In this document: positions 1 through 50,955 of the stretch, piece after piece
How positions within the stretch are numbered: position 1 is the stretch's first letter
Layout: each line of letters starts with the position of its first letter
NCBI GenBank assembly: GCA_003024175.1
Contig: MDYQ01000003.1
Coordinates: 273,962-337,961, forward strand
Direction of reading: 5' to 3'
Length of the DNA stretch: 64,000 nucleotides
DNA from: Planoprotostelium fungivorum
Taxonomy: Eukaryota > Evosea > Variosea > Cavosteliida > Cavosteliaceae
Position numbers and translations under genes: made by a program
Notes under the pieces: model-generated
Seen by the model: only the letters and a program-made list of their open reading frames with translations
Database searches by the model: none
Told to the model about the DNA's origin: nothing

Positions 1-1921
1 CAGCTCCACCATCCACTCGGACTCACTCAAGGCTCTCATTCTCGCAGTGCTGGCGAACTGCGGAAAGGCGGACATGTTCAAGAACACACCCAGCAAGGAG
101 GAGAGGAAGAACGCTCTCTTCAGCATGGACCTCTTGACTTCCATCGCTCTGGCCAACAGTCAGAGGATCACGGAGATATGGTGCGTACATCTTCTCTCAA
201 GATAGGATGATGAGAACGAGTGGAATGAGAGGAGATGTGATGATGAGAACGAGTGGAATGAGAGGAGATGTGATGATGAGTGACTGAATGGATGAACAGG
301 ACACCCATATCAGATCACCTGTCTTCCGTCATCGAGACGAGCTCGAAGATGAACGAATACACCGAGAAGAGCATCGTGAACCTGCTCATCATCGCCATAC
401 GATTGTCGCAGAGCAACACATTGGATGTCACCGTCATCATGACCCTCCAATCTCTCATCAAGATGAACACCAATCTCGCTGATGTGGCCGCCAAGAAGGT
501 GAATCATCGATTCGATGATCTCATCATCTGATTCGATGAAGGTGACATACGGCATCTCTCAGCTCGTCGAGACCTCCCCCGACATGATCAAGTGATGTCT
601 CATCCACGATGAGATGGATGGATGATTGACGATGTGTAGGACATCGATCGGTTGGGCCACGCTGAGCGCATTCCTCGATTTCTCTTCGAGCTTCTCGACA
701 TCAGAGAGTGGGGGATTCAAGATCTTAGCCAATCTGCTGACCAAGAGCAATCTCATCACCAAGAGCAGCTTTTCGAATTGGATCACCCTCATCATTTTCT
801 TCACCAAACCGAGGTGATCATCACATCACATCGATCATCACATCACATCACATCACATCGAACCCGTCTGAAAGAGAGCCAGATGTTCAGCCAGCACCGC
901 CAACTCGGCCATGGAGCTGTTGTGGTCGTTGTTCAGATTCATCCCCGAACTCTTACAACTTAAGCCCGACACACCCAACACCGAGGAGACACAAGAAGGT
1001 GAGGAGGAGTGACAGATCTCGCTCACTGTCGCAGCTTGGGACGGCTATTGGTATCCCATCTTACATCAGTTGAGCGTATTATGTCAAGATCACAGGAGTG
1101 AAGTCAGGAGCCACGCCATCAACTTCTTGCAGAGGTCGCTGCATTACAACCACCTCCAAAAGTTACCGCCCTCCGTGTGCTATCAGTGCTTCCAGCAGGT
1201 GAGAGGAGTAGAAGAATAAGGGTTGATCGATTGAAGGTGATCTTCCCACTGCTGAGAAGCATGTTGCAGACACCGGAGAAACAAGAAGTAGGAAACAACA
1301 ATGCCACGCATTCTATGGAAGAGATCAGAACGAGAGGATTTAATTTATTGAAGTCAGTTTATCTGCAGTATCTGCTTCAGGTGAAATCATCCCATCGTTC
1401 GTCATTCATCGATACAGGTCACACAGCTGCCCAACTTTAGAGACCTGTGGCTGCAGATCTTGGAGTTCATGGAAGCTTTCGGTCGACCAGACAATTCGGA
1501 ACACCTGGTGAGTGTAGAACGTGAGGAGGAAACTGAAGCGTCACAGGTGGAGGGCGTTCGAGAGGGCTGCAAGATCATCCTGTTGATCATGAGCAACAGT
1601 GGACTCTTCAGCGGAAAGAGTGACGCGTCAGAGCAGAGCAAGAGGATCTGGGAGGACACGTGGGAGAGGATGGATCGATTCTATCCTTCTCTCAAGCAAG
1701 AGTGGATCTCCGTCACACCCGAGGACTTCCCGCAGAATCCATCCACAGCCCAACCGCAGGAACCAGCGCAACCACAAGCACAGCGCAGCACACCAGCCCA
1801 ACCTACACCAGCACCACAGAGTGCACAACAGAGTACACAACCGACGCAGAGCACACAAGCACATCCGGTGATGGAGTTGGCATCGAGGCCAAAATCACCC
1901 TCATCGGCGACGGACGTGTAA
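1..1921 (+). CDS. GBF1: GBF1/GNOM-type Arf guanine nucleotide exchange factor, C-terminal part
   Basis: Large Arf-GEFs of this family activate Arf GTPases at the ER-Golgi interface to recruit COPI. The Sec7 catalytic domain lies before the window; only the C-terminal helical (HDS) region is here, so the gene is cut at base 1. Exons joined across GT-AG introns give helical-repeat sequence with family hallmarks: WDGYWYPILHQL near 1037, NFLQRSLHYNHLQKL near 1121, and LWLQILEFMEAF near 1446, followed by IWEDTWERMDRFYP. The tail after about 1740 is low-complexity Gln/Pro/Thr/Ser. One intron at 1510-1548 is only 39 nt. The stop TAA is at 1919-1921, 44 bp from the convergent SARAF-like gene. A BIG-type Arf-GEF is less likely because the C-terminal HDS wording fits GBF1 better. 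Confidence 0.85.
206..271 (+). repeat. Two-copy 33-bp tandem repeat in a GBF1 intron
   Basis: The intron starting at 175-181 contains two consecutive copies of a 33-bp unit beginning GATGATGAGAACGAG. It is a simple local duplication and has no coding role. Confidence 0.8.
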
Positions 1922-1965
1922 GCACATGTGCCTTGTAAAGGATGAATCTACGTACATACATTTCT

Positions 1966-2918
1966 TTATCGGTTATTGGTCGAGGCAAAGGCGGTGGCCG
2001 TCCTCGTGTCATCGTTGCTGGAAGAGGCGTAGCTGTCGTTCGATGCGTAAGGAGCGTAGGCGTGGGGTCTCTGTGGACTGTAGTAAGAGGACCTCTGGTT
2101 TCTCCCCAGCATGTATCCCATGGCTGCACCTCCACCCGCACCAGACCAGAAACCTGGTGTCCAAGAAGGTCGTGGTGGGTTATAATCTGGAGTAGTTGTG
2201 TAAGAGCTATCTGACGGGTAGTAATCGGTGTGGTGATAAGAGGTTGAGGAGGCTGGTCTACCATCGGCGACAGAAGTGCAAGCCTTGAAAAATCCCCAGG
2301 CGATGAAGCCCAGGACTCCAATCATGAACAAACTTCCGATCCAAGAGCCTTCGTTCTCAACGACTATCATATGTTCATTCAGGCGTGTGAGATGACGCCC
2401 ACCATCGGTTTCGACTGAGGGATTGTGATGTTGTCTGCTGGAGGGTCGCCCTTGTTTAATTATCCCAGAGTAATCCAATGTATATTCTAAACCGCAGCTA
2501 CCTCTCAAAACATTGGGATCCGATGAATCGTGGTAACCTTCACAAGACACAGAAGTTGCTCCGAACTTGACTTGCTTATTCAGATCTGCCTCACATCTCC
2601 ACTGAACATCTATACATCGTCAATCACAATCATCACTAACAGCAACTCACTCTGCCCATCGGTTCCAACATTATAACATTGTACAGTTGAGGGATACAGA
2701 TCTGTTCTAGAAAATGCTGAACCGCCAACGCATTTCAACTGAGATACGGGAGATGTCCTTCGGAAGGTGGTCTGTTTACCAGCCGTGAATGTGAGAGCCT
2801 TGATTTCGTCTAAAGAGACTGATGCAGATGCTTGATTCTGTCTGCCATACTCATACTGTGGATTCGCTGCCAAGGACGATGCGAAGAGAATGAAGAGGAA
2901 TTTGTAAGTTGTCCTCAT
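1966..2918 (-). CDS. SARAF: SARAF-like ER membrane protein (regulator of store-operated calcium entry)
   Basis: SARAF is a single-pass ER protein that slows store-operated calcium entry through STIM/Orai in animals. Here the start ATG (2916-2918) opens a signal peptide (MRTTYKFLFILFASSLA). The luminal part holds the family landmarks IKALTFTAGKQTTFRR, PVSQLKCVGGSA and, after one intron near 2550-2640, VSCEGYHDSSDPNVLRGSC and LEYTLDYSG. A transmembrane segment (GSLFMIGVLGFIAWGFF) follows, then a Ser/Tyr/Pro-rich cytosolic tail with the conserved GFWSGAGGGAAMGYMLG block. The length is close to metazoan SARAF. An upstream in-frame codon at 2945 is GTG, so the internal ATG is preferred. Assignment to the family is strong; the calcium role in this organism is inferred. 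Confidence 0.88.
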
Positions 2919-3243
2919 GCTGTTGATTTTGATGTGGCACAACAACAGACCAGATCAGCTGAGGACGTGGATGTTTATTGCCTTCAGAGAACCAAGAATT
3001 CCGGAACATTCCAAGTTGAACCGTTCAAGTTGAATCATTCAAGTTGAATCAGATCCTAAATTTCCGCGCAATTCGAGCGGCATATGGTCACGTGTCTTAC
3101 AAATGTGGAGGGTCAATCCAGCTCGACACATCACCCTTCTCCGCCCACTCCCGTTGAACAACTCACGCACGTTTCACGGTGATCACTCCCGATGTTTCAG
3201 CTGACACTAATCCTTCGCAGCATCAAACACATTGACACCCAAG

Positions 3244-4080
3244 ATGCCCTTCGATTACAGTCGAGATTACAGAGAACTCAATCTGAGAGAACATCCAGAG
3301 TTATACGCAGTGGGTGCGTTGTGTCCAGCTGTGACCAACAGACTGACGCTAGACAGGGAAGGGAGAGCAGGGAGTTCTCATGGTACAACCTTACAAATCA
3401 GAGATCCTCCCTCACTGGCGATTCAAGAATCCAGAGATCGCTAGAGAGTCATCTCAGAAGATCTACGACATGTTTCTCGAATACAAAAAGAACGACGACT
3501 TTGTGGGTATGGACATGGCCAGGTGAAGTCTTCCCGTTGTGACGATGTCACTCACAGAGTACAGAAAATTCCTGATGATGGGGTGGACGAGAGCGAGAAG
3601 ATACGCCAACCACAAATCAGGACAGAAATACGAGAAGAGAACGAAGAAAGAATTGGAAGAGTACCACGCCATGACAGCAGAAGAGAAGGTGAACTGATGC
3701 GAAGGATCTCCTCTGAACAGAGAAGGTGGACACCAACTCAGAGAGACAAGGGAAGCGGACGAAATTGGAGAATGAGGAGGATCTGGTGAAGGCTGAAGCA
3801 GCGGCCATATTCAGAGTCTTGTATCTGAAAGGTGAGAAGCCGATCACGCTGGTTGATCCATCGTGAGCTGATGTCTCCAGCCTACGAGGATCCAGAATAT
3901 CGCCAGAAGATGGTAGAATTCAAAGACAAGTATGAGGGCAGTACAAAGAAAGTCAGTGCGAAGAAGAAAGTGAGCGTCAAGGGGGAAAAACCAAGTGTGA
4001 AGGAGGAGAAGAGGGGAATTAAGAGAGAGCCACAAGACGATCAGCCAACACTGGAGCAAGTCATAAAGAAGGCCAAATAA
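3244..4080 (+). CDS. DUF4385 family protein
   Basis: Four or five exons give a protein starting MPFDYSRDYRELNLREHPELY and continuing through GEQGVLMVQPYKSEILPHW and DDFVGMDMARKFLMMGWTR to RRYANHKSG. These blocks are the core of DUF4385, a family of unknown biochemical function found in bacteria, phages and some protists. After the core comes a Lys/Glu-rich tail (KKVSAKKKVSVKGEKPSVK) that is likely disordered and could be a nuclear or nucleic-acid-contacting extension. The stop TAA at 4078-4080 sits in an AAATAAATAAG context that could double as a poly(A) signal. Introns at about 3313-3356, 3522-3565, 3689-3724 and 3831-3880 were placed by GT-AG signals that keep the frame. Distribution mainly in prokaryotes and viruses makes ancient transfer possible, but the introns show it is now an endogenous gene. 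Confidence 0.8.
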
Positions 4081-4496
4081 ATAAGATATTGTCAATTGCC
4101 ATCCACTCACACCACTTGCTCAATCCTCTTTGCCTCCCTAAATTGTGGATGACGTGAATTGGTTTTTCTGCAGTTTTTGTGTCAACAAACTGGGCAGTCA
4201 AGTAGCTGAGCAGTGCACCACATGCTCTTGTTTGGTCGCTGTGTCGGACCAAATCACGGCTCTTTCCGCATTTCCTTATCTATTATTAGTAAGATATTAT
4301 TAGTAAGTAAGATATTGTTCGGCGGGTTCGTTTTCACACCAATAAAATAAAAAGGCTCGGTTTTCGCTCAGTTTTCGTTTGCTGAAATTTCAACTGCTTT
4401 TCAACCAATTTTTTTCGATATATTTACGTAAATATCCTAGGCTTTGTTATAGCCTCGATCATCAATTTACAACACTGTAGTGCCTCTTTATATAGT
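4081..4496. other. Gene-free spacer
   Basis: I see no gene here. The stretch is AT-rich from 4260 onward, with a short direct repetition of TAAGATATTATTAG around 4285-4310. It separates the DUF4385 gene from the transposase 3' end and probably contains one boundary of the transposable element; I could not define a terminal repeat by eye. Confidence 0.6.
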
Positions 4497-5832
4497 TCAA
4501 TATCCTCGACCAACCAAATCGCAGTGTTTGTACATCTTGGCTACATCAGCTGTCGTGACTTGAGCCACTTCTTGAATGAGATCTCCAAGGATAGGGCGAT
4601 CAGATGCACGTCCACAGATCTTGCCTTTGAGACGAGCAAATAGCAGCTCAGTGGCATTGAGTTCTGGCGAGTAGGTGGGGATGAAATAGAAGTAGACTCC
4701 ATACTGTGCCGTTAAAGCCTGGTATTCCTCTCTCAATACCGCTGCACTATGTACCTTTGCGTTATCGAGCAGCATGACCTGCCTGTGTTGTATTGCGCCG
4801 CTACTGCAGCAGTATCTGATAAATCTGGCGAAGTCCTGTCAAGCAATTAGCACAAATATCATCAAATTGCAAACCTGCGCTGTATTTGACCCTTCTCAAT
4901 AGTCGAGTACGACTGGGGTATTTGGATTCAACGTGATCAGCGCAGTAATAGAGAACGTTCGATCTAGTCTTGCTCGATCGCTAAGCACTGGAACTGATCC
5001 AATAGGTGCTATCGCACAGATTCGTCTCAAATCCCTTCGTTGAATTAGATGGACAAGGTAATTGACCTCACCGAGCGGCAAAATGCGCTTCATCTGTGTA
5101 CACAATTCGGTTGGGATCGATCCTTGCCCTCCATTGACCAAATTCTGCATATCTCTGCATATTGTATGCAGTGTATTTGGCTCTCTGTACTAACTCAGTA
5201 TTATGAAACAATCGGTGTGTTGCACCTGCTGATAAACTGGGCGCTTCCACGACCAGTGCCACGATTGGAAAATGCTTTGTACAAAGTCTCGCGATACATT
5301 CTGATTCATGTCTTCGGAAAGTGCTCGCACAAATTGCATCAAACTGTAGGCCGGATGAGCATCTACAAGAGCCGCCAATCGCGCTCTGGCTCTCGCTCTG
5401 AATTGAAGGGAGTATTTTCGAACATTTCGCCTGAGAATGGTCATCATGACGATGCGATGAGCTCATTGAACGATGATGGATGAACACTCACGTATAATAA
5501 GAGCCACCATTGGGTAAGGGATGAAACGTTAGGAAGTTGCGAAATTTCTCTCTCCAATACATCCTCTGATTTTTGGTGGCTGGTATATCGATTCTTGCAT
5601 ACCTCGGCAGTCGAGAGAGGAGGTAACGGCTTCTCGTCTTCTGAGCCCGCGCATGCTGCCTTATGGGCTGTTGGATGTCCCTCTGTCGCATCAGGAAGAA
5701 GTGATATGCCGATTAAGAGCTGCGAGAAGTGAGGCCGCGAATCTCGTTGTAATGATTGACAGAATTGAGCGAGATGCTTAAAATTGCACACGCAGCTTCA
5801 TTGTTGCCTGCTCTCCGGTCATCAATTTGCAT
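4497..5832 (-). mobile_element. IS630/Tc1-mariner superfamily transposase (DDE)
   Basis: Read on the minus strand, exons from about 5832 to 4497 give a DDE transposase. The N-terminal part (5832 to about 5490) is helix-rich and plausibly DNA-binding; the middle holds RRNVRKYSLQFRARARARL and IFQSWHWSWKRPVYQQ. The catalytic part shows VYTDEAHFAAR (first Asp, about 5070), MLLDNAKVHSAAVL (second Asp, about 4770) and YSPELNATELLFARLKG (Glu, about 4650), so the triad looks complete. Several short introns are needed. In the N-terminal stretch (about 5715) the simplest reading contains an in-frame TAA, which is either inside a small intron or an inactivating change. The 5' third of this gene is repeated downstream at 6383-6600. 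I could not find convincing terminal inverted repeats. Activity is undecided. Confidence 0.75.
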
Positions 5833-6268
5833 CTCCTTGCGTGACCAAGTCCAAACTCTGCATCGGTCACGCGATGATCAGGTGTGACGAGACTTGTCCA
5901 TGGGCAGGAGTGGGTCGATCGCCAAATCTCCACTAAACTCCTAGCGTGACTTCATTCCTTCACGCTCAAAGCTTGAGAAATCAAATCTTTCGTTCATCAA
6001 GTCATCGCACATCACCACCCATCATCATGCCCGGCAAAACCAAACCTACCAATATGGCCACTAGCGTCAACAACGCACGTCGTCTCAACCTGGCCATGGG
6101 ATTCATCACCTTTCCCATCACTGTTGAGAACACCAACGAACACAACCAGCAGTGCTGCTTCTTCTGCCACAAGTTCATCGCACCTAAGACGAGCCACGAA
6201 CACTTCGGCCTTGAGGAGATGTGTATCGAGATCGATAAAGAATGCAAAGGCTCCCAACGTAAGTGTGA
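5615..6268. repeat. Tandem duplication, copy 1
   Basis: This segment is repeated, at high identity, at about 6379-7034 with an offset of 762-765 bp. It carries the 5' part of the transposase gene on the minus strand, the shared intergenic region, and the first exon of a small plus-strand gene. Copy 2 differs by point changes and a 4-nt insertion near 6493. Confidence 0.9.
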
Positions 6269-6378
6269 TCGTCATCCATCGATGACAGTCTGCAGATCAC
6301 TCAGAGGCAGATAAACTGAGATGGAATACCCAGAAAGACCTAGAAGAGTCAAAGAAAGAGGAATCAATGAAGGCAGCN
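6027..6378 (+). CDS. Small Cys/His-containing protein, divergent from the transposase
   Basis: An ATG at 6027-6029 opens MPGKTKPTNMATSVNNARRL, then a hydrophobic patch and QQCCFFCHKFIAPKTSHEHF followed by EMC. The spacing of C-x2-C, H-x-H and a later Cys suggests a metal-binding knuckle, but I recognise no family. A GTAAGT donor follows at about 6259; a candidate second exon (KDLEESKKEESMKA) runs into the single ambiguous base N at 6378, where the tandem copy begins, so the 3' end is not recoverable here. It shares a bidirectional upstream region with the transposase and may belong to the same mobile element. A second, broken copy lies at 6792. Confidence 0.5.
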
Positions 6379-7034
6379 GAGGAGATAACGGCTTCTCGTC
6401 TTCTGAGCCCGCGCATACAGCCTTATGGGCTGTTGAATGTCCCTCTGTCGCATCAGGAAGAAGTGATATGCCGATTAAGAGCTGCGAGAAGTGAATGAGG
6501 CCGCGAATCTCGTTGTAATGATTGACAGAATTGAGCGAGATGCTTAAAATTGCACATGCAGCTTCGTTGTTGCCTGCTCTCCTGTCATCAATTTGAATCT
6601 CCTTGCGTGACCAAGTCCAAACTCTGCATCAGTCACGCGGTGATCAGGTGTGACGAGACTTGTCCATGGGCAGGAGTGGGTCGATCGCCAAATCTCCATT
6701 AAACTCCTAGCGTGACCTCAATCCTTCACGCTCAAAGCTTGAGAAATCAAATCTTTCGTTCATCAAGTCATCGCACATCACACTCATCGTCATGCCCGGC
6801 AAAACCAAACCTAACAATATGGCCACTGGCATCAACAACGCACGTCGTCTCAACCTGGCCATGGGATTCATCACCTTTCCCATCACTGTTCCAAACATCA
6901 ACAAACACAACCAGCAGTGCTGCTTCATCTGCCACAAGTTCATTGCACCTTAGGCAAGCCATGAACACTTCGGCCTTGAGGAGATGTGTCTCACAATCGA
7001 TAAAGAATGCAAAGGCTCCCAACGTAAGTGTGAC
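6379..7034. repeat. Tandem duplication, copy 2
   Basis: Near-identical to 5615-6268. It begins directly after the N at 6378 and contains a truncated 5' end of the transposase on the minus strand and a degenerate copy of the small gene on the plus strand. Identity decays after the GTAAGT donor at about 7024. Confidence 0.9.
6792..6953 (+). pseudogene. Decayed copy of the small Cys/His gene
   Basis: The ATG at 6792 opens a protein matching copy 1 (MPGKTKPNNMATGINNARRL) with about a tenth of residues changed. It ends at TAG 6951-6953, exactly where copy 1 has an AAG codon within APKTSH. The remainder of the original exon is still recognisable to about 7022. One copy intact and one stopped is the usual picture after duplication. 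Confidence 0.75.
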
Positions 7035-8763
7035 TAGCAAAGTGTTTGAGTCAGAGGAAGACTTGCTCTACAATGATCCTTCTGCCATTGTGAGCCAGGT
7101 CTGTTTCCAGAATTCATTCTCAGGTACTATTACAAGGATAGACTTCATGGTTGCGGTCGTTTTGAGCCCAGTGCCAATACGTTCAGGCATGTTTTCTCCA
7201 AAGTTGGAAATTTGGGGAAAATCCAACCATTGTAATCAGGGCAATTATTTGGTCCATTTGTGATCTCTCACAAATTTGGTCTTATGTAATGTTAACTTTT
7301 TTAACGCACATAACCATATGCATCATTATGTAATGTTTTTTTGGCCCTTTGACAGGGATATAACTCTGGGCAAGATGAAGCTGGAATGTGAGCTGAGAGA
7401 GCTATATTTGTAAAGCCTAAGACTTGTAGTTATGTGAAAATGCAGCTTTTGTAAATGACATGGGGATTTCTGTTTCAATTCTTCATAGTTAGATATTTTA
7501 GCCTGCATGTATAATATTCTCTGTGTCTGTATATAAGAGATCTACTTCTGCTCTGTCATGATACTGATACAAACAATTGTACACAACATTAACACTTGAC
7601 ATGATAGGATTGCAGATCCTACATGCTTAGCACTCTTCATATTACATTTGTCTTTCTGTTGTCTGACTTCTATTAGCCCTTTGTGTTGTTTATCTGCATG
7701 TCTCATCATACTCTAGTCTGTTATTGTGCTGCCTATAGTTTGTTTCATGAATCACTCAGGTGAGTGCAGAAAAAAAACAAGAAAACATAGGAATCAGCAA
7801 ATGCCAAAATGGATGTGATTGATGAAGTTTTACAACATTTTTGATTATGATCAGGGACTGCACACCATATAGGCAAGATCTCCCTGCCACTGTATGATTA
7901 TGAACAGATGTCCAGAAAGTATTGACATGCCACCCAAACCCCATCATTGCCTTGATTTACATTTCCCTTTTCTCCCCCCTTTTTTTGGTCTTCCCACTGG
8001 GCTGCAGTTCAAGGTTATCAGTTGGCCAGCAATGGCTTAGCAGCCCCTAATGGGTCAAATGGTATCTGAATAAAACCTAAAACTGAGCCTGATTGAGTCT
8101 ATGCCCACACTTTGCCAGAGAACAAACCCTTCCTCAAATTGCTAATTACTTTTTTGGGACTGAGTCTAAAAATAAGCAATACTTGTCTGAGGCCATCCTC
8201 AAGCATTATTTGCAAGCCTATCATCTCAGAAAGGTCACCTTTTCTGAACACTGGGCAGTACTGCCCCAAGTCCAAGCTCACAAAACAAACTTGTCCAAAA
8301 GTTCCACTGATGGTGGTCTCTCCTGGGGGATGCACATATGATGCTAGCTGATAGTGTTTGTTAATGCTGTCCCTGAGCTCCTACTGGACTTGTGACCATT
8401 TTGGACAATTGTGCAATAGTTAATTGAGATGGTGGCTGCTGTCCAGCCAGATGTTTTCACGTTCCAGTCTTAGCTACAATTGGGTATCTCTGCTTAGAGC
8501 CTTGGCAAATTTCCTCCAGTATGTTCAGGGATATAATAACATCCTTTTAATGAAATTGGCAGAAGTTTAAGAAATGCAAGTTGCAACAAGGACAGATATA
8601 GAGCCATTGCTATGTACATCCTTGGTTGCCAAAGGGTTTGTCTTATGCAACACAGGTACTGCATCATCATCTCAATATTTGACTGCATCAAATACGATCA
8701 TATAACACTCAATTTAGCCACAGATACACCAGTACTTCCGCTTTCTGTCACATCATTTAATTT
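7035..8763. other. CpG-depleted non-coding block
   Basis: No credible gene is present; open frames are short and lack splice-joined continuity or family likeness. From about 7310 to 8690 I count only one clear CG dinucleotide (at the 8460/8461 line break) plus one near 8694, while nearby coding DNA usually has two to five per 60 bp. TG and CA are abundant. The block ends at the stop of the HECT ligase, whose last coding 700 bp are also CpG-poor. Confidence 0.7.
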
Positions 8764-11700
8764 CTAGTTGAAGGAAAAAGCCCCCTGACCATGCTGAATG
8801 GCAAAGAGTAATTTCTCCTTCAAAATCTTAGGATTTGAGTACTCTGGTAGTTTGAGGTAGTAGAAACAGCAATTGACGGATGGCAGATAGATGTCAGGAT
8901 TCTCTCCCTCTGGTTCCTATATCTCTTCAGTACTGAATTGGACAATTGCTTCACCTTTCTGACAATAGTCAATTTGGGCTGTAGAGAGGAGAAGCCTCCT
9001 GCTGGGAGTTTGGGAGAGCCTGTAACAAAAAGTAGAAATTTTCTTCTTTCTTCTTTGCTCATCTCTGATAGCACTTGGAAGAGATAATGTACTGTTGAAC
9101 TGCTATGATTGAATCCATGCTCGCACTTTGTGTTCTCCATCAATGCTGTTCTTGTTAGCGCTTTTTTTCTCATTGTATCACTTTGCATGTCCCATGATGC
9201 ATCCTGTGCTCCAAAATACACTTGATTCAGCTCTGTAATGCTGAAGGAGCTCAATTCTTCCATGTCCATGACGCTGTTAAATCCTGTCCCTATCAATCTT
9301 GTCTGAACCTCTCTCTCACCTCTCTTGAATGCTTCCATCTGTCTCTTTACTCCTCTTTGAAGGTGGAAATCGACCGTGAGATGAATGTATTCTTCAAGGT
9401 TGTGTAGAGTTACCTCTACATCCTTTCCACTCTCTATCAGCTCCACACCTTTGAATGTCATCTTCATTCTTCTCATTCATCTCACCTGGCATTCCTATTA
9501 CAGTGAAATCAAGAGATAGATCTTCCATGTTAACGTCTCCCAGCTTCAATCCCTCGATGTCTTTCTTCTTTTCATCCTCCCTCTGTGCCGCTGAGAAGCG
9601 AAGATGAATGATTCTACCTTATCACTGGAGACAATGGCCTTGTATTGAAGGTGTAGATTCATAAGCTTCTCCACAGATTGAGAGAAAGAGGGATCCAATG
9701 CTTTGAGATCGACAAAGTGAAGAGGTAGATTCAACATACTCTTCAGCATAGCATCAGACATCTGCAGATCGAGTATGCGGCTGTCCAATATACCCTTGGC
9801 CACAAAAGTTCCCAAGAATTCAAACTTGCTCAACTTCTTTGTGATTGTATCGTCGTTCAGTGATGGACTGCTGATAGTAAGTCATACCATACGGGGTGTT
9901 ACATACTCAATGGGAGAGGGATAGAGACCACCATAATTAAGTACCATTCCTTCTGTTGTGTTCATGCATGATTCACTTCTCCACAAAGAGTGCTTGCTCT
10001 TCTGTATCTCACGGCACACCAACGTGAAGAATTCTAGAGTGGGACCCAAGCCTGTCCCAACCTCGCCAAAGTATTCCACCTCAAGGATCGATTTTGACTT
10101 TCCATACATCTCCATCACCTACCTTTGTTACTATTCGTTCATTCTGGTTCTCACCTTCATGGCAGAGGGAAGGATCTTGCTCCTACTCACTCGAACCTGT
10201 TCTCACCGTCAGCATCCACTGTGACAATGAAGAAGTGATAGTTACCTTTTGACGTGGAATCCTTCCCACACGAAATGTGGAGTGGGAGTCAGATGGGTGG
10301 ATGGGGTGGTTATACATGTGATGTAGAGCTCTGGCCACACCGAAGGAGGTAGTAGAGAAGAAGTGGACTCTCGATTCGCAGGTGAATAAGAAGGGGAACA
10401 TCCTCAGCATGTAGCATACCCAGTCAGGGTAGCTGTTGGACAAGAGAACGAAGGGATCTTTCAATTGCCGGCTCAATTTGGCACTCAACTTTGTACTGCA
10501 GAATTCATTCAAAGTAATTTCGTTTCCTTGTTCCTGTCCCTTTTTCAGTTCCTCATCCCTCTCTATCCTTACCTTCATCCCTTCAAATTCCTTATAGTAG
10601 AAACAGCAGTGGTACAGAATCTTCATCAGGTTCATCGCCTGACCGAGTGTCCTCTCACCCTGGAAAATATCCTCAAAACTGTCTTCTGTTAATCTCTTCT
10701 ACTTCTCTTGGTCTCACTCGAAGTTTTTCATGTCTCGAATCATGTGATTGTAGGTCGGAATATGTACATAGACTGACAACGTCACTCTCCCTCCTCTCAT
10801 CGTTCTTCACCTTTCTGTTCCTCCTGCCCCAAAGTCATCTTGTCTTCCGTAGATAATTTGTACTCTATGGTCCAACTCTTCTCCCACATCTTGTGGACGC
10901 TCAGCATCTGTGTGTCGTTCTTGTTCTTCTGTCCCTTTCTTTCTTCTCTCTCGATTGACTGTTCATAGATGAGATCATTATCGACAAATTTAGATGATGT
11001 CTGATGATCTATGATGTAGTCACCTTTAGAACAGTTTCCCATGGATGTAGAGGAGAACCATTGAGAGAGAGCTGTATTCTGGGTGCTGAAGGAAGGGATT
11101 CTTTTCCCGTCCTGGCAATGTCTGCATAGATTTTGTTGGATACATAGTTCTCTACAGACGATACCACAGAGAGGGGCTCGGCCAACACGTTACCCGTGGC
11201 ATAATTCTGAACCTGTTTTGATCAGTCTCTACCTCTGCAATCAAGGTCTACCATGGGATCTATCTCTTCCTCTGATTTGACCAGTTTCAGCTTGAAGGGG
11301 TGGGCCAGTAATTTCAGACCTGACGCTGTGCCTGAAATTTCGTTGGCTGCGACGGTGAAGTTTTCTAGCTTGTTGATGATATCATGTAGCTTTTTGATCG
11401 TCATGGAGATATCCTCTCTCTTTCGCTCTATCATCAATCTACACATCATCGTTCCCCTCGTGGTGATCCATCGTTCCCTCTCTTCTTCATTTGTCTCAGA
11501 CACTTTCATCTCTCCTGATTTGTTTAGAGATTCTTCGCCTTTCATGGTCTCACCTTCAGAAGGTTTGGGAGCAGAGAGCGTGAGGTAGGAATAGAGAGAG
11601 GTCAAGATGTTGGATTCCAATAGCTCAAAGGTGGAGATTCCTTCATTTCCTACGATCAAGTCGATCATCTTCTCCAGTATCTCATATTCTGGGCATATGA

Positions 11701-42877: not shown

Positions 42878-44571
42878 TTATTGCGTCTCAATAAACACAT
42901 CCAACACATCGTCAAATTCAAAAACCTTATCTGTTCCTTCGTCCGTCACTCTTATCCCAGTCACCTCCTCTCATCAGATCATCATCTTCTTCTTCTTCTT
43001 CTTCACCTTCTGGACTCCGGGCTTCGTGGGAAACAATCTCAACGTGATGTGGACGCTGGCCCCAGGCTGAACGGGCTGAGTCAATCCGTCGTACCGCATG
43101 GTACCATCCACGCTGACTCCCGTCATCTTGTCTCTGGCGTAGTGTAATTTGGGGCTGATGTTTCGGTTGCTCGTGTTGGTGAGCTCGCAGTCGATGGTGA
43201 ATGGACGTTCGAGGAGAATGTGTGATGGTGCATTTCGAACGGAGAGTTCCAGTTCGAGACGTTGGGGGACTTTACGCTCTAATGGGGCCGTCTGTAATCT
43301 GATATCTCGCGTGAGAGGATGATCTGATCAGATGATGAAGAGGTGAAGATGCTGATGATGGGAGGGTGATGTCGATGAGATGTCGGTGTACCTGCCGGAT
43401 TCACCAAAGTTGGACTTCCACGTGAGTTCTAATTTTCCGATGACGCTTCCGATCTTTCCGCGAGATTCCCCTTTCGGTTCGACCTGATTCATCAGCTCTA
43501 CATCATCAACCTCCTTCACCTTGAACAAGTACTGACGCACATCACTCGGTTTCATGTAGATCAGATCACCCAATACTCCCCTGTATCTCATTCAGTACCG
43601 TCCATCTACATCGATGTAGACGAGATGTATCCCACCCCAATGATTTCGAATTGTCTTCCATCTGTGATCGCGTCAACGAGGTGAAGGTGAAATAAAACAG
43701 AATAAAATGAAAACAATTCGTCACCTGATTCAAATCGGTGGCGACGTAGAGTGGTAACGGCTCGAAGCGTACAGTTTCCAGGAAGAGTGGATTTGTCGTT
43801 AGATTTTGTATCTGAGCGGTCAAAAATATTCCATGCTGCCATATTTAGAGGAGAAGCATATGAGAGGAGAAATGGTTCTCACCTGCAGATCGTGTGTCTG
43901 CATCTTGATGCTGATGGGATTCATCACTTGGAATTTGAAGAATTTTCGAAAGCTCTTGGATTCTCCCGTGTGTCTCGTGTAACTGACGGTACAGACTAAT
44001 CTGAACAGTGTCACATAGAGGTCTCCTACATCGAGAGTTCACATGTGGATGCCGATCTCTTTCACTTCGTGTGAAACGACATAATCGTGACTCTCTCCCG
44101 ACTGGAAGCTGATGATGGGCGTGTTGACATCAGCCAGGGCGAAACGCTTCGTGCCCGTCTGCATTTCTGCCTTCATAGTGACATTCTTAACGTCGAATGG
44201 AGAGTGGTTGTGGATGCTGATGTAACTTTTGAAGGTCTCTCCCAAGAACATGTTCCTGTGCAGAATTAGATGGAGTGATGGAACACAGAGAGAGTGGCAC
44301 TCACACGAAGGCTTGAGGGAGCGTGAGGATGGTACTCACACCGAAAGCATCGTCAGAGTCTGAGTCGTGGGCAATGTCTGTCTTTTCGGAATAGATGGGT
44401 AGTGCTGTGTTGAATGAAGGTTTATACAATCTCATCACTGTCGTTTTCAGTTGCATGTTCACGACGAAGAGTACCTTTTAGTGTGAGAGAGTGAATCTCT
44501 TTCGGCTCTAGGGGATTCCCCAGATTGGACGACGATAAACTCGAGCTGCCGAGATTTCGATTGTCAGCCAT
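42878..44571 (-). CDS. TRAPPC13: TRAPPC13-like TRAPP complex subunit
   Basis: TRAPPC13 is a subunit of metazoan-type TRAPPIII, a Rab GEF for secretion and autophagy. Start ATG at 44571 opens MADNRNLGSSSLSSSNLG. Landmarks follow in family order: VMRLYKPSFNTALPIY-like sequence, MFLGETFKSYISIHNHSPFD, DYVVSHEVKEIGIHM, ESKSFRKFFKFQVMNPI, MTAQIQNLTTNPLFLETVRF, MKPSDVRQYLFKVKEV and IGKLELTWKSNFGESGRYTD. The final exon, after a GAA-rich intron, reads VTGIRVTDEGTDKVFEFDDV and ends FIETQ at TAA 42878-42880. The whole is beta-rich, as in the arrestin-like TRAPPC13 fold. Length and block order match the family well, so the call is strong. The start lies only 80 bp from the divergent Rieske gene. Confidence 0.9.
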
Positions 44572-44651: not shown

Positions 44652-45321
44652 ATGACTACTCCCGTGAAGCGTGTGACTAAGGTCACAGGAGCTGTCGGGC
44701 CTCCGCCAAAGATCGTTCCACCCAGTGGACAGTTTGTTCACATGGGTGACGTTGATCAACTCAAAGCAAATGGAAAGATAAGAGGGCCAATAGACGGAAG
44801 GGATGTCACCGTTTGGATTGTTCACGGTCAGATATACGCTATGGACTCTGTATGTTATCGTGAGATCCTGTCGTACCCACCTCGTTCTCTGACAAAGGCT
44901 AGACAATGGAGGTCCTCTGGATGCAGGGCCAATCGAGGTGACGACCAATTATGATGATTTATAGATGGAATGATGTTGATCAAAAGGAATTGGGTGATAG
45001 AGTTTGTGTCGTCTGCCCTTGGCACCGATACAAGATCGATCTTTCAAACGGAGAATCTCTCTACACGAACCTGTCGGGCGATGCGTGTTCAAAGGGAGTC
45101 AAGCAACGGACACATGATGTAGAGGTAAGCACCATCTCTGATATTCGTGTGATGAAAGTGAACGGGAGAAGGTGAAGGAAGGAAAGGTGATGGTGAGAGT
45201 GAAGGCGGCAGCAGATGGTGAACAAAAGATCGAATCAGACACGTATGCATACTCCAATCTGTACGAAGTTCAGAAGGATGACCCTTCTGTTAAAAAGAGG
45301 GTACATTCCACGCGGTATTGA
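44652..45321 (+). CDS. RFESD: Rieske [2Fe-2S] domain protein, RFESD type
   Basis: ATG at 44652 opens MTTPVKRVTKVTGAVGPPPK. The first iron-sulfur motif C-x-H is created by splicing: the exon ends after VCY plus one base at a GTGAG donor (about 44858) and resumes so that the text reads DSVCYHNGGPLDAGPIE. The second motif is CVVCPWHRYKIDL. LYTNLSGDACSKGVKQRTHD then aligns with vertebrate RFESD, a soluble Rieske protein of unclear function. Two Cys and two His ligands are present, so a 2Fe-2S cluster is expected. It ends KKRVHSTRY at TGA 45319-45321. No targeting signal is evident. It is not a dioxygenase: no mononuclear iron domain follows. Confidence 0.87.
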
Positions 45322-45762: not shown

Positions 45763-48700
45763 ATGGGTCAAGAAGACACAATCAATCGTACCTTTCGTTG
45801 GTACAATGGAGGAAGAGATGTAGGCATCAGCGGACAGTGGAACGACTGGAGAGTGATTCCGATGAAGCCAGATTCCAAAGAGCCTTCAGAGATGATTGTT
45901 GATGTGGAGGGTCTGAAACCCAACACTCAGTATCTATTTCGGTTCAATGTGGACGGAGAATGGAAGACTGATCCAACAGTGCCAACCGTCAGCAGCACGG
46001 TCGCAGGCGGAGAGATCTTCAATAACGTCATCAACACTGGGTCGCTAGACACAAACGATAGATTGACGGAGGTCGAGAAGGAGAATGAGATCTTACATCG
46101 CCAAATCAATCAATTGAAGAAAGATCACGAGAGAGATGCTTCAACAATGAGAGAAAACGCTTCGAATCAGGATGAACTTCTTTTGAACAAGTTGACGAGA
46201 GCACAAGAGGAGTACAATCTTCTGTCCGAAGAGAGAAATGAGCTCAAAAAGAACATGAAGAGGATGGAACAAGAAGCGGTGCGTGATGATTCATTCGCGA
46301 TCTTCTCCATGATCATACATCATCTGAAGATCAAAGGCGGAAAGAGATATCGAGAATGAAGATGGGGTCAGCAAGGATATCGAACAATTGATGCGACAAA
46401 CCGAACAGAAGGACAAGAGGATCGAGCAGCTGAGCCACGACCTCCGACAAGCGACGCTGCAGAACGTAGAGTATGTGAAGAAGATGGAAGAGATGGAAGA
46501 GAAGCAGAAAGATCCAGAGAGTGCAAAGATCACAGAGCTGACAGAAGCCAATGATAAGGTGAGTGGAGACGAGAAGAAGAGAAGCTGAAGAGAGAACAGC
46601 TGGAAGAAGAGAACATGGATCTGCAAGCCAAATTGGACGAGTTGGAGATGGAACTGGGAGAATTGAGGGGCGAGAGAAAGCCAGAAGAGAAAGAGGAAGG
46701 TAACTTCTACGGAGGAGAAGAATCACCAAAGGCAGTAGAAAGGTGTGGATGCAGACTATCGCTGAATTATTATTCGCTGATGAAATATAAAGGGTGAAAG
46801 AGCTGGAAGAGTTGTCAGAGAGACAGAAGAAGGAGGTGGAATCTCTGCAGAGGGAACGTGCAGATCTACAGAATCAGACGGAAGCATCAAAGAATAGAAT
46901 CGATCAATTGAGCCACGACCTTCGACAAGCGACGCTGCAGAACGTAGAGTATGTGAAGAAGATGGAAGAGATGGAAGAGAAGCAGAAGGACCCAGAGAGT
47001 GCAAAGATCACAGAGCTGACAGAAGCCAATGATAAGGTGAGTGGAGACGAGAAGAAGAGAAGCTGAAGAGAGACAGCTGGAAGAAGAGAACATGGACTTG
47101 CAAGCCAAGGTAGATGACTTGGAGATTGAGCTGCAAGAGCTGAGAGGCGAGCGAGAGCCAGAAGAGAAGCAAGACAGCGACAGCAACTCAGATAGGTGCG
47201 TAGATGTCTATCAGCTGTTGATGGCTGAGATGGATGATGTGACTGATGTCCGTGACAGAGTGAAAGAGCTAGAGGAGCTTGTAGAGAAACAGAAGAGAGA
47301 AGCAGAGACCGTACAACAGACTCTCCAAAAAACGCAGAAGAGTGTGGACGGTCAGACAGCAGCACTGCAGAGTAAAGTCGAACAACTTAGCCACGACCTT
47401 CGACAAGCGACGCTGCAGAACGTAGAGTATGTGAAGAAGATGGAAGAGATGGAAGAGAAGCAGAAGGACCCAGAGAGTGCAAAGATCACAGAGCTGACAG
47501 AAGCCAATGATAAGGTGAGTGGAGACGAGAACAAGAGAAGCTGAAGAGAGAACAGCTGGAAGAAGAGAACATGGACTTGCAAGCCAGAGTGGACGATTTA
47601 GAGTTCGAGATGGAAGAGGCAAAGAGCAAGACATCAGAGGGCACACGAGCTGATGCATCTGTGAACAGAACAAACGATGAGTCGGAAGCCCTGCAGAAGA
47701 TGAGCCACGAATTGCAGCGAGTCACAGAGCAGAATGCAGAGTATGAAGAGAAGATGCAACAGATGCAACAGATGCACGAGAGCTCAACGAAAGAGACGAC
47801 GAGAGAATTATTGGAGGAGAGAGAGAAGGTGAGGGAAGAGAGGGGAGGAGGACTAAAGGGGCATCAGCTCGAGAAGGAGAACATGGATCTGCAGAAGAGA
47901 ATTGAAGATCTGGATGGAAAGATCCAAGATGCGAATAAGGCGTCACAAAGGTGAGATACTTGACACACGAGATGATCGTCATCAACATGATCATCAACGC
48001 GAACCTCATCACTTATGTGTGACACTCTACAGAAGTCAACAACTGGAGACCAAATTGAATGAGTTGAAAGAATCTCTTGAAGCTACGAAGAAGGAGAAAG
48101 AGACAGCAGAAGAAGAACACAAGAACCAACTCCAAGCTCACCTCTCACACCAACAGACGTTACAGAATCAGTGCGAACAACTTGAGAGACAGATGAGAGA
48201 AGAGAAGGAGAAGACGCAGGAAGAGAAGAGAGGAGTAGAGAACAATACAGAGGAAGAATCGAACACAGAGAAGATGAAAAAGAAAATCGAACAGCTTAGC
48301 CACGATCTTCGACAAGTGACACTGCAGAACGTAGAGTATGTGAAGAAGATGGAAGAGATGGAAGAGAAGCAGAAAGATCCAGAAAGCGCAAAGATCACAG
48401 AATTGAGTGAGGCGAACGATAAGGTGAGTGAAGGGAGAGAGAAAGAGAAGCTGAAGAGAACAGCTGGAAGAAGAGAACATGGACTTGCAAGCCAAGGTAG
48501 ATGACTTGGAGATCGAACTGCAAGAGCTGAGAGGCGAGAGAGAGCCAGAAGAAAAGCAAGACAGCGACAGCAACTCAGATAGGTGTGTGCCTATTTATAG
48601 TTAAGCAAAGAGCTTTGTATGGCTGAGATGGATGATGTGACTGACGTCAGTGACAGAGTGAAAGAGCTAGAAGAGCTTGTGGAGAAGCACAAGAGAGAAG

Positions 48701-50955
48701 CAGAGACTCTACACCAGACTCTGCAAGAGACTGTACAGAAGAATACAGACGGTCAGACAGAAGGACTGAAGAGCAGAGTGGAACAGCTGAGCCACGACCT
48801 TCGACAAGTGACACTGCAGAACGTAGAGTATGTGAAGAAGATGGAAGAGATGGAAGAGAAGCAGAAAGATCCAGAGAGTGCAAAGATCACAGAGCTGACA
48901 GAAGCGAACGACAAGGTGAGTGAAGGAGAGAGAAAGAGAAGCTGAAGAGAGAACAGCTGGAAGAAGAGAACATGGACCTGCAAGCCAAGGTAGATGATAT
49001 GGAAATTGAGCTGCAAGAGCTGAGAGGCGAGAGAGAGCCAGAAGAGAAGCAAGACAGCGACAGCAGCTCAGATAGGTGCGTAGGTGTCTATCAACTGTTG
49101 ATGTCTGTGATGAATGATGTGACTGATGTCAGTGACAGAGTGAAAGAGCTAGAAGAGCTTGTGGAGAAGCACAAGAAGGAAGTAGACACCCTACAACAGA
49201 CTCTGCAAGAGACTGTACAGAAGAATGCAGATGGTCAGACAGAAGGACTGAAGAGCAGAGTGGAACAACTGAGCCACGATCTTCGACAAGTGACACTGCA
49301 GAACGTAGAGTATGTGAAGAAGATGGAAGAGATGGAAGAGAAGCAGAAAGATCCAGAGAGTGCAAAGATCACAGAGCTGACAGAAGCGAATGATAAGGTG
49401 AGCGAAAGCAAGAAGAAGAGAAACTGAAGAGAGAACAGCTGGAAGAAGAGAACATGGACCTGCAAGCTAAGGTAGATGACTTGGAGATCGAACTGCAAGA
49501 GCTGAGAGGCGAGAGGCAGCCAGAAGAGAAGTCAGACAGCGAATCTATGAGCCAAGAAGAACAAAGCAAGCTGACGGACAAGTGTGTAACACACGTTCTT
49601 TCATATGATCACTCATATGTCTCATCTACCGTAACGGTCGACTGACATCGACAAAAGAGTGAAAGAGTTGGAAGACATGGCAGAAAAGTACAAGAGAGAA
49701 GCAGAGACTCTGCAACAGGCTCTCAATACCCAGACAGAAGAGTCGAAGAGCAAGATCCATCAACTCAGTGACCATCTACAACGAATGACAGAGCAGAACG
49801 CAGAGTTAGAGAAGAAACAGAGAGACTTGGACAGTGGAATTCTCGCAGAAAGATCCAAAGAAGAGGACACGTCATCAGATGTCAGAGTGAAAGAGGTGAG
49901 ACATCCGTGACATCATCATCGGCTGATCACGTGATCAGTTGGAAGAAGAGAAGGCAAAGCTGTGTCAAGAGAGAGATGAATTTCAAACGAGATGTAGAAA
50001 GTTAGAGAAGAGCGCAGAGAGAATGAAGAAGGAATACTTGAACTTGAAATACCAAGAAGAAGAGAGGATGGAGAAATTGGAGGAGCTGTCCGAACTGAGA
50101 GAAAAGTTGGAGAAGGTGCGTCCACTCTCGTTCCTGACGATGACCTTTCATCATCACGTTCATGACATCGAACGATCGTGAAGACAAAGACTGATGGAAT
50201 GAAACAGGCACTGGACGAGAGAGACGAAGCTGTGGTCGAATTAGAGAGGAAGACGGACGAACTGGAGGCCCTTCAGAACCTCGATCAACAGCTGTGGCAG
50301 CAGGTGACATCCTTCCAATCGAACGTTGACTGAAAGAGGACAGATCGATGAAAAGGGCAAGGAGATCGTTCAACTCAAGAGCCAAGCAGATGGAACGGTG
50401 GTATGTTTCCATTCGTTTCATCTGTACTGAACGATTCAGATGGAAGCGCTGACCGAGAAGCTGAAGAAGGCAGAGGAGAAGAGTAAGACGCTGTATCTGA
50501 AGGTGAAGGATTCTGTTGTGTTTGGTGAATGACCTCTTTCAGTTACAAGATGTGACGGTGCGGTTGTCTAGATCAGATGATGTCACCACCTCGCTGGAGA
50601 AGATGAGGAAAGACAATGACAAATTGAAAGAAACGACGGCGAAATTGTGGAAGAAGATCGAATTCCAAGCGAAAGAGATCGGTCGTGTGAGTAATCATCC
50701 ATCATCTTACGTAGCCCACGACAGCCACCAGCCCATCTATTATCATCCTTATCAGCACAGTTGAAGGAAGAGAAGAGACAGACACTGGATGGAGACGTCT
50801 TCTATCGAGAAGTAGAGAACCGAATCGAAAACCTGAGAGAGAAGATGGAAGGCGATCGAAGAGAAAAGTCGGCAGGATCACAGCACATCCTCATGCTCTC
50901 CATCATGGCCGTTCTCCTCGGCATCATCGCGGCCAATTTTGTCACGAACCGATAA
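45763..50955 (+). CDS. CBM48 glycogen-binding, long coiled-coil, tail-anchored protein with internal repeats
   Basis: ATG at 45763 opens MGQEDTINRTFRWYNGGRDV, then ISGQWNDWRVIPMKPDS and YLFRFNVDGEWKTDPTVPTV: an AMPK-beta/PTST-type CBM48 carbohydrate-binding module (about residues 8-85) with its Trp and DG-x-W-x-x-D-P signature. From about 46060 the protein is almost entirely coiled coil, in many exons, for over 1,300 residues. Six near-identical blocks (IEQLSHDLRQATLQNVEYVK, then KMEEMEEKQKDPESAKITEL) and at least two diverged ones recur. The C-terminus has a single hydrophobic helix, HILMLSIMAVLLGIIAANFV, followed by TNR and TAA 50953-50955: a tail anchor. The inferred role is to tether glycogen to an endomembrane, analogous in layout to STBD1 but built from unrelated parts. 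Confidence 0.85.
46433..49560 (+). repeat. Intron-containing tandem repeats in the coiled-coil gene
   Basis: The motif AGCCACGAYCTYCGACAAG recurs at 46433, 46911, 47389, 48298, 48790 and 49272, with a diverged copy at 47703 and another near 49760. Most neighbouring copies are 478-492 bp apart. Each unit carries exon sequence plus its own short introns, including a roughly 41-nt intron starting GTGAGTGGAGACGAG or GTGAGTGAAGG, and intron sequence is as similar between copies as exon sequence. Confidence 0.9.

Follow-up and report, generated by a model that had tools for sequence, protein, structure and literature searches.

The gene at positions 45763-50955 (+) of a 64,000-nucleotide stretch of Planoprotostelium fungivorum contig MDYQ01000003.1 raises the question of whether a single protein could hold glycogen next to a membrane. 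The whole stretch that was analyzed (64,000 nt) is referred to as the window, and the gene as the target. The predicted product has an N-terminal CBM48, a long coiled-coil rod and a hydrophobic C-terminal helix. The reading favored here is that it is probably a cytosol-facing, tail-anchored scaffold that tethers glycogen to a membrane, most plausibly the endoplasmic reticulum (ER). A preliminary description of this DNA had proposed such a glycogen-to-membrane tether. The proposal is supported by the layout, the conserved contact Trp and Asn residues, the make-up of the tail and the recurrence of the layout in the genome; from these features we infer the binding, the membrane and the localization. 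The features are located as follows, in window coordinates.

45763..50955, + strand: whole coding region, 21 exons, 1,379 amino acids (gene model and intron check)
45787..46035, + strand: CBM48 (AMPK1_CBM), residues 9-91, in exon 1 (Pfam, PDB match, contact residues)
46036..46278, + strand: CBM48-to-rod junction and first coil, in exon 1 (junction TGS....RL..EKE..L.RQ, like that of the rod paralogs)
46337..50886, + strand: coiled-coil rod with Pro/Gly-containing breaks, introns inside the span (heptad z score of 15, Pro/Gly positions)
46422..49542, + strand: tandem repeat array, DNA period 482, six coding copies (Tandem Repeats Finder; pN/pS 0.107)
50887..50943, + strand: C-terminal hydrophobic helix (putative tail anchor), residues 1358-1376, followed by TNR and the stop (hydropathy, translation, AlphaFold2)

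The coding region has no internal stop, and its 20 introns are all GT-AG and 39-82 nt long. In an intron-by-intron check, retention of a single intron results in an early stop for 17 of the 20; introns 5, 7 and 12 would stay in frame with no stop. Since the CBM48 runs into the coil within exon 1 (45763-46278), the head-to-rod join is independent of splicing. At each of two settings, a simple gene finder makes a single gene of 45862-50955, divided into 19 exons in one case and 18 in the other, versus 21 in the hand-made model. It starts at a later ATG, 33 codons short of the model start, and these codons were added because the CBM48 begins there. The splice model of the gene finder was seeded from the splice sites of the hand-made model, therefore its agreement is supporting and not independent. 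Its codon table came from long open reading frames (ORFs), including the coils. The initial settings fused nearly the whole window and were discarded, and others fused adjacent genes at several loci.

A head and a tail from two different genes could in principle have been joined in error. Introns 15-20 lie outside the repeats and are supported only by their splice consensus and reading frame, the acceptor of intron 16 could be at 50184 or 50208 (a difference of 8 amino acids), and the gene finder shares its seed sites with the hand-made model. However, one continuous frame runs across all 21 exons and the head is in the same exon as the first coil. The intron stop check, together with the repetition of the layout at other loci, makes such an artefact very improbable. 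As read from the genomic sequence, the gene and its head-rod-tail layout are real.

The predicted head is an AMPK-type CBM48 that retains most of the key glucan-contact residues. The hidden Markov model search that had been suggested as a check matches exon 1 to Pfam AMPK1_CBM with an E value of 1.1e-13 and 51.6 bits versus a curated cut-off of 26.8, and the Trp and the DG-x-W-x-x-D-P landmark of the preliminary description are present, the latter as DGEWKTDP. The best PDB sequence match is AMPK beta1 (1z0n, 4.3e-11), and all 16 PDB matches belong either to AMPK beta chains or to yeast SIP2. In the available text of two studies, the glucan-relevant residues of rat AMPK beta1 are W100, K126, W133 and N150 (PMC4032982; mutants in PMC6274970). 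In the alignment W100, W133 and N150 are identical in the target and K126 is replaced by Arg, as it is in the genome's own AMPK beta. Loss of the contact aromatics in a structural model had been named as a sign against the tether; in the alignment, both Trp are kept.

The rod had been put at more than 1,300 residues of coiled coil; it is a segmented coiled coil of ~1,250 residues with 20.6% Glu and 1.0% Pro. Its heptad score is 0.444 versus 0.259 +/- 0.012 in 300 shuffles, a z score of 15. The Pro and Gly residues are concentrated at breaks, so the rod is probably jointed. Six protein repeat copies are spaced by 129, 125, 249, 126 and 126 amino acids, and only the last two spacings are whole heptads (126 = 18 x 7). 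Over a 69-residue core the copies differ mainly at silent positions, with proportions of synonymous (pS) and nonsynonymous (pN) differences of 0.34 and 0.037, which gives the pN/pS of 0.107. The first intron of the repeat unit is 40 or 41 nt long in all six copies and the second is 50-76 nt long in the five copies listed, both at matching positions. The rod gave only sub-threshold Pfam matches in the 10 of 21 exons scanned in frame, and two NCBIfam queries gave no match.

The C-terminal helix, ILMLSIMAVLLGIIAANFV, has a mean hydropathy of 2.57 over residues 1358-1376 and ends three residues (TNR) before the stop, as the preliminary description had stated. Among the 19-residue segments that start over 40 residues before the C terminus, the best reaches 0.73. 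The sequence therefore has the layout of a tail anchor, with a lone hydrophobic helix near the C terminus and no comparable segment elsewhere. The last exon is predicted by single-sequence AlphaFold2 to form one helix (residues 11-62) with a mean predicted local distance difference test score (pLDDT) of 83. The target tail is the most hydrophobic among 49 gene models, followed by those at loci L021 and L018, and its charge is +1. According to the available part of PMC5450235, a hydrophobic helix with a low tail charge favors ER targeting, so the high hydrophobicity and low charge of the target tail point to the ER. This make-up suggests a putative tail anchor.

The layout recurs elsewhere in the genome. 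A search of 36.9 Mb in 471 contigs gave 20 AMPK1_CBM matches with the target included; 17 are above the cut-off, one of these only with its neighbors. All 20 places fall in the window and 16 loci (L009-L024). CBM48 is joined to a long coil in at least six proteins, the target, L021, L018, L010, L017 and L023, and the target is thus predicted to be one member of a small CBM48-rod family in this genome. L021 (1,029 amino acids) has an N-terminal CBM48, a rod of ~900 amino acids and a C-terminal helix. L018 (520 amino acids) has a CBM48 on either side of its rod and two C-terminal hydrophobic stretches, and L010 (717 amino acids) has two CBM48, a rod and a C-terminal helix. L017 (oriented 3310-6973) is a rod protein of 1,139 amino acids with three CBM48; its C-terminal end GCNGC, noticed by eye, is possibly a lipidation site. 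L023 (oriented 389-9822) has an EF-hand pair, a coil, a CBM48 and a very long charged coil, but the model runs into the next gene, which leaves its 3' end and possible tail unsettled. The paralog models are in part hand-made, and the ends of L021 and L018 were placed from splice sites. The CBM48-first start is common to the target, L021 and L018. Of the nine rod-protein CBM48 domains compared with that of the target, eight show 42-48% identity and one (L018b) shows 36%. The corresponding values are 38% for the AMPK beta of this genome, 36% for rat beta1, 34% for L020, and 38% and 34% for filamin-type CBM48 domains, in an alignment that omitted seven places (L009, L012, L013, L014, L015, L016 and L024).

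A hydrophobic C-terminal helix is found in four of the six modeled rod proteins (target, L021, L018 and L010). The binomial probability of this count is 0.0025 if each protein has a 0.12 chance of such a tail, the rate among 150 six-frame ORFs (18 cases), and 0.017 if the chance is 0.2; the calculation is post hoc, with a threshold of 1.58 that is L010's own value, and the paralogs are not independent. These tails bear on whether the protein could instead be a PTST-like enzyme carrier, in which the coil would bind glycogen enzymes, the CBM48 would deliver them to the polymer and the anchor would merely park the carrier. In the available text on plant PTST, a scaffold, the coiled coil binds GBSS and the CBM48 reaches starch (PMC4339375), and the tailless L017 would fit a carrier. 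On the other hand, the CBM48 of the target is N-terminal, tails are present in four of the six rod proteins, and a repeated rod of ~1,250 residues seems beyond the need of a docking coil. A carrier of this kind is therefore an unlikely, though not negligible, explanation.

Several observations weigh against a glycogen-to-membrane tether. In the head, K126 is replaced by Arg, L146 and T148 of AMPK beta are Val and Ile, and the single-sequence AlphaFold2 model of the CBM48 has a mean pLDDT of 37. In a tree of 17 CBM48 domains, among them those of L015 and L016, 2 of 14 inner branches are well supported and the target is drawn weakly beside AMPK beta. The heptad scores are weak for the rods of L021, L018 and L017, with z scores of 2.0, 1.4 and 0.5. 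In 7 of the 49 gene models the hydropathy reaches 1.58 within the last 50 residues, so a tail of this kind is by itself no rarity in this genome, and the rules of tail-anchor targeting derive from mammals and yeast. Membrane attachment is not a trait of the whole family, as L017 lacks a hydrophobic tail and the tail of L010 is of moderate hydropathy (1.58, compared with 1.44 at residue 605). Genome searches with the last exon and with one rod exon matched nothing else, so the anchors of the four tailed proteins need not be homologous.

The substitutions at K126, L146 and T148, along with the tail-anchored coiled-coil shape, would also fit a CBM48 that has turned into a protein-interaction domain, which would make the target a golgin-like membrane tether unrelated to glycogen. 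However, the target retains the Asn and the two contact Trp, and the two Trp recur in all 14 aligned CBM48 domains of the genome, AMPK beta included; of the seven places outside this alignment, four have DGKVC at the W133 site. It is thus improbable that the head has lost its link to glycogen.

Outside of the rod proteins, L009, L012, L013 and L024 read DGKVC at the W133 site. They are closely similar 120-amino-acid frames from different contigs and may represent a repeated element or contig duplicates. L022 (oriented 410-5007) has matches to CH domains (2e-23), filamin repeats (1e-20) and CBM48 (1e-9). L011 (oriented 4353-6639) has a CBM48 match (7e-12) and a sub-threshold filamin match (0.001), with no CH domain seen. 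By eye, the CBM48 in these two filamin-type proteins appears to be inside a filamin repeat, and such proteins could tie glycogen to actin. A pattern from seven aligned paralog CBM48 domains (target excluded) had 27 matches in viral contigs and 46 in prokaryote genomes, and tblastn showed none of these to be a relative.

The genome has two phosphorylase loci and a GT5 glucan synthase (L035, 512-5493), so the cell is expected to contain a polymer that the head could bind. The genome gave no match to GT3 glycogen synthase. The long N-terminal part of L035 resembles GH13 by eye, with no Pfam match at 1e-5. There are 11 CBM20 matches in the genome, two of which are in a chain (L036, contig C299) that resembles a DPE2-type glucanotransferase by eye.

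As a glycogen-to-membrane tether the target might act as follows. The CBM48 head would bind particles of alpha-1,4-glucan (glycogen), and the rod would dimerize and, if fully helical, span up to ~185 nm. Insertion of the tail into a membrane would follow translation, and its very hydrophobic helix and charge of +1 make the ER the most likely site. Together the head, rod and tail would keep glycogen near the membrane, partners that bind the coil may be brought along, and the other family members would offer differing numbers of heads and differing anchors. An anchor and glycogen binding might also serve to bring glycogen into autophagosomes. STBD1, an ER transmembrane protein that projects into the cytosol, has been proposed as a selective autophagy receptor for glycogen in the available part of PMC5358331, and the target has eight matches to the loose W/F/Y-x-x-L/I/V motif. 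This motif is common, two of its matches are in the CBM48 and six are in the coil, and the CBM20 and N-terminal anchor of STBD1 are absent from the target. A role as a glycophagy receptor is therefore doubtful, and tethering is the preferred role.

Most of what is known about where cells position glycogen with respect to membranes comes from STBD1 and from animal PP1 targeting subunits. If the tether is real, a separate set of long rods with AMPK-type CBM48 heads would mean that the tethering of glycogen evolved repeatedly or dates back further than assumed, and the heads, rods and anchors that vary among genes of one genome would form a testable set. A more speculative possibility is a dedicated glycogen-positioning system, in which one type of CBM48 head was duplicated onto many chassis. 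These could link glycogen to membranes through the target, L021, L010 and L018, to the actin network through L022 and L011, and to an EF-hand calcium-binding rod in the case of L023. Rod length would be changed by tandem duplication of whole units, such as the 126-residue, 18-heptad blocks of the target.

The direct neighbors of the target gene are ordinary. A Rieske-type ferredoxin gene (window 44906-45321, + strand) is upstream, and a TRAPPC13 gene (window 42974-44456, - strand) is beyond it.

The remaining question is how the target compares with known glycogen-binding systems. AMPK beta is in the same CBM48 subfamily, but the target was rejected as an AMPK beta: AMPKBI (PF04739) had no match in exon 1 or in 10 further exons scanned of the 21, while its two genome matches are both on contig C384, which carries AMPK beta as a gene of its own. 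The target was also rejected as a PP1 glycogen-targeting subunit, since exon 1 matches AMPK1_CBM and not CBM21 and there is no N-terminal RVxF; the sole RVxF regular-expression match is at residue 1304, inside the rod. No CBM21 match was found in the genome, in a search that gave no control match either.

PPP1R3A and PPP1R3F carry CBM21. The available text on PPP1R3A (RGL/GM) places its glycogen- and PP1-binding parts at the N terminus and a hydrophobic sarcoplasmic-reticulum segment at the C terminus (PMC2214798), an arrangement similar to that of the target. The difference is that PPP1R3A binds PP1, whereas the target has a CBM48 head and a giant coiled coil in between. According to the available part of PMC5450235, PPP1R3F has a tail anchor, was seen at the ER and is a potential regulatory subunit of PP1. 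Both proteins were overlooked in the preliminary description, and its claim that no described protein has this exact layout is too strong in general form. The combination of a CBM48, a giant rod and a tail anchor was not found in the literature searched, which covers few subscription journals and was available in part. The same literature gave no paper on glycogen, amoebae, a carbohydrate-binding module and a coiled coil together. Judged mainly by titles, work on CBM48, coiled coils and glycogen is mostly on plant starch, with some on bacteria, a cryptomonad and archaea, and a Dictyostelium genome paper, in its available part, refers in general terms to proteins that bind glycogen (PMC3188802).

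The earlier comparison with STBD1 holds as far as the available source goes. STBD1 shares with the target, as predicted, a membrane-anchored glycogen-binding layout, but it has a C-terminal CBM20 and an N-terminal anchor, the reverse of the target's N-terminal CBM48 and C-terminal helix. PTST and FLO6, in the text available on them, likewise join a CBM48 to a coiled coil; however, they are plastidial and their CBM48 is towards the C terminus instead of at the N terminus. To our knowledge, they have no membrane helix and no giant rod. Golgins and SLMAP have an N-terminal ligand-binding end, a long coil and a C-terminal tail anchor, as the target seems to, but no carbohydrate-binding module, which the target adds. 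The target thus combines traits of PPP1R3A, STBD1 and PTST, yet belongs to none of these families.

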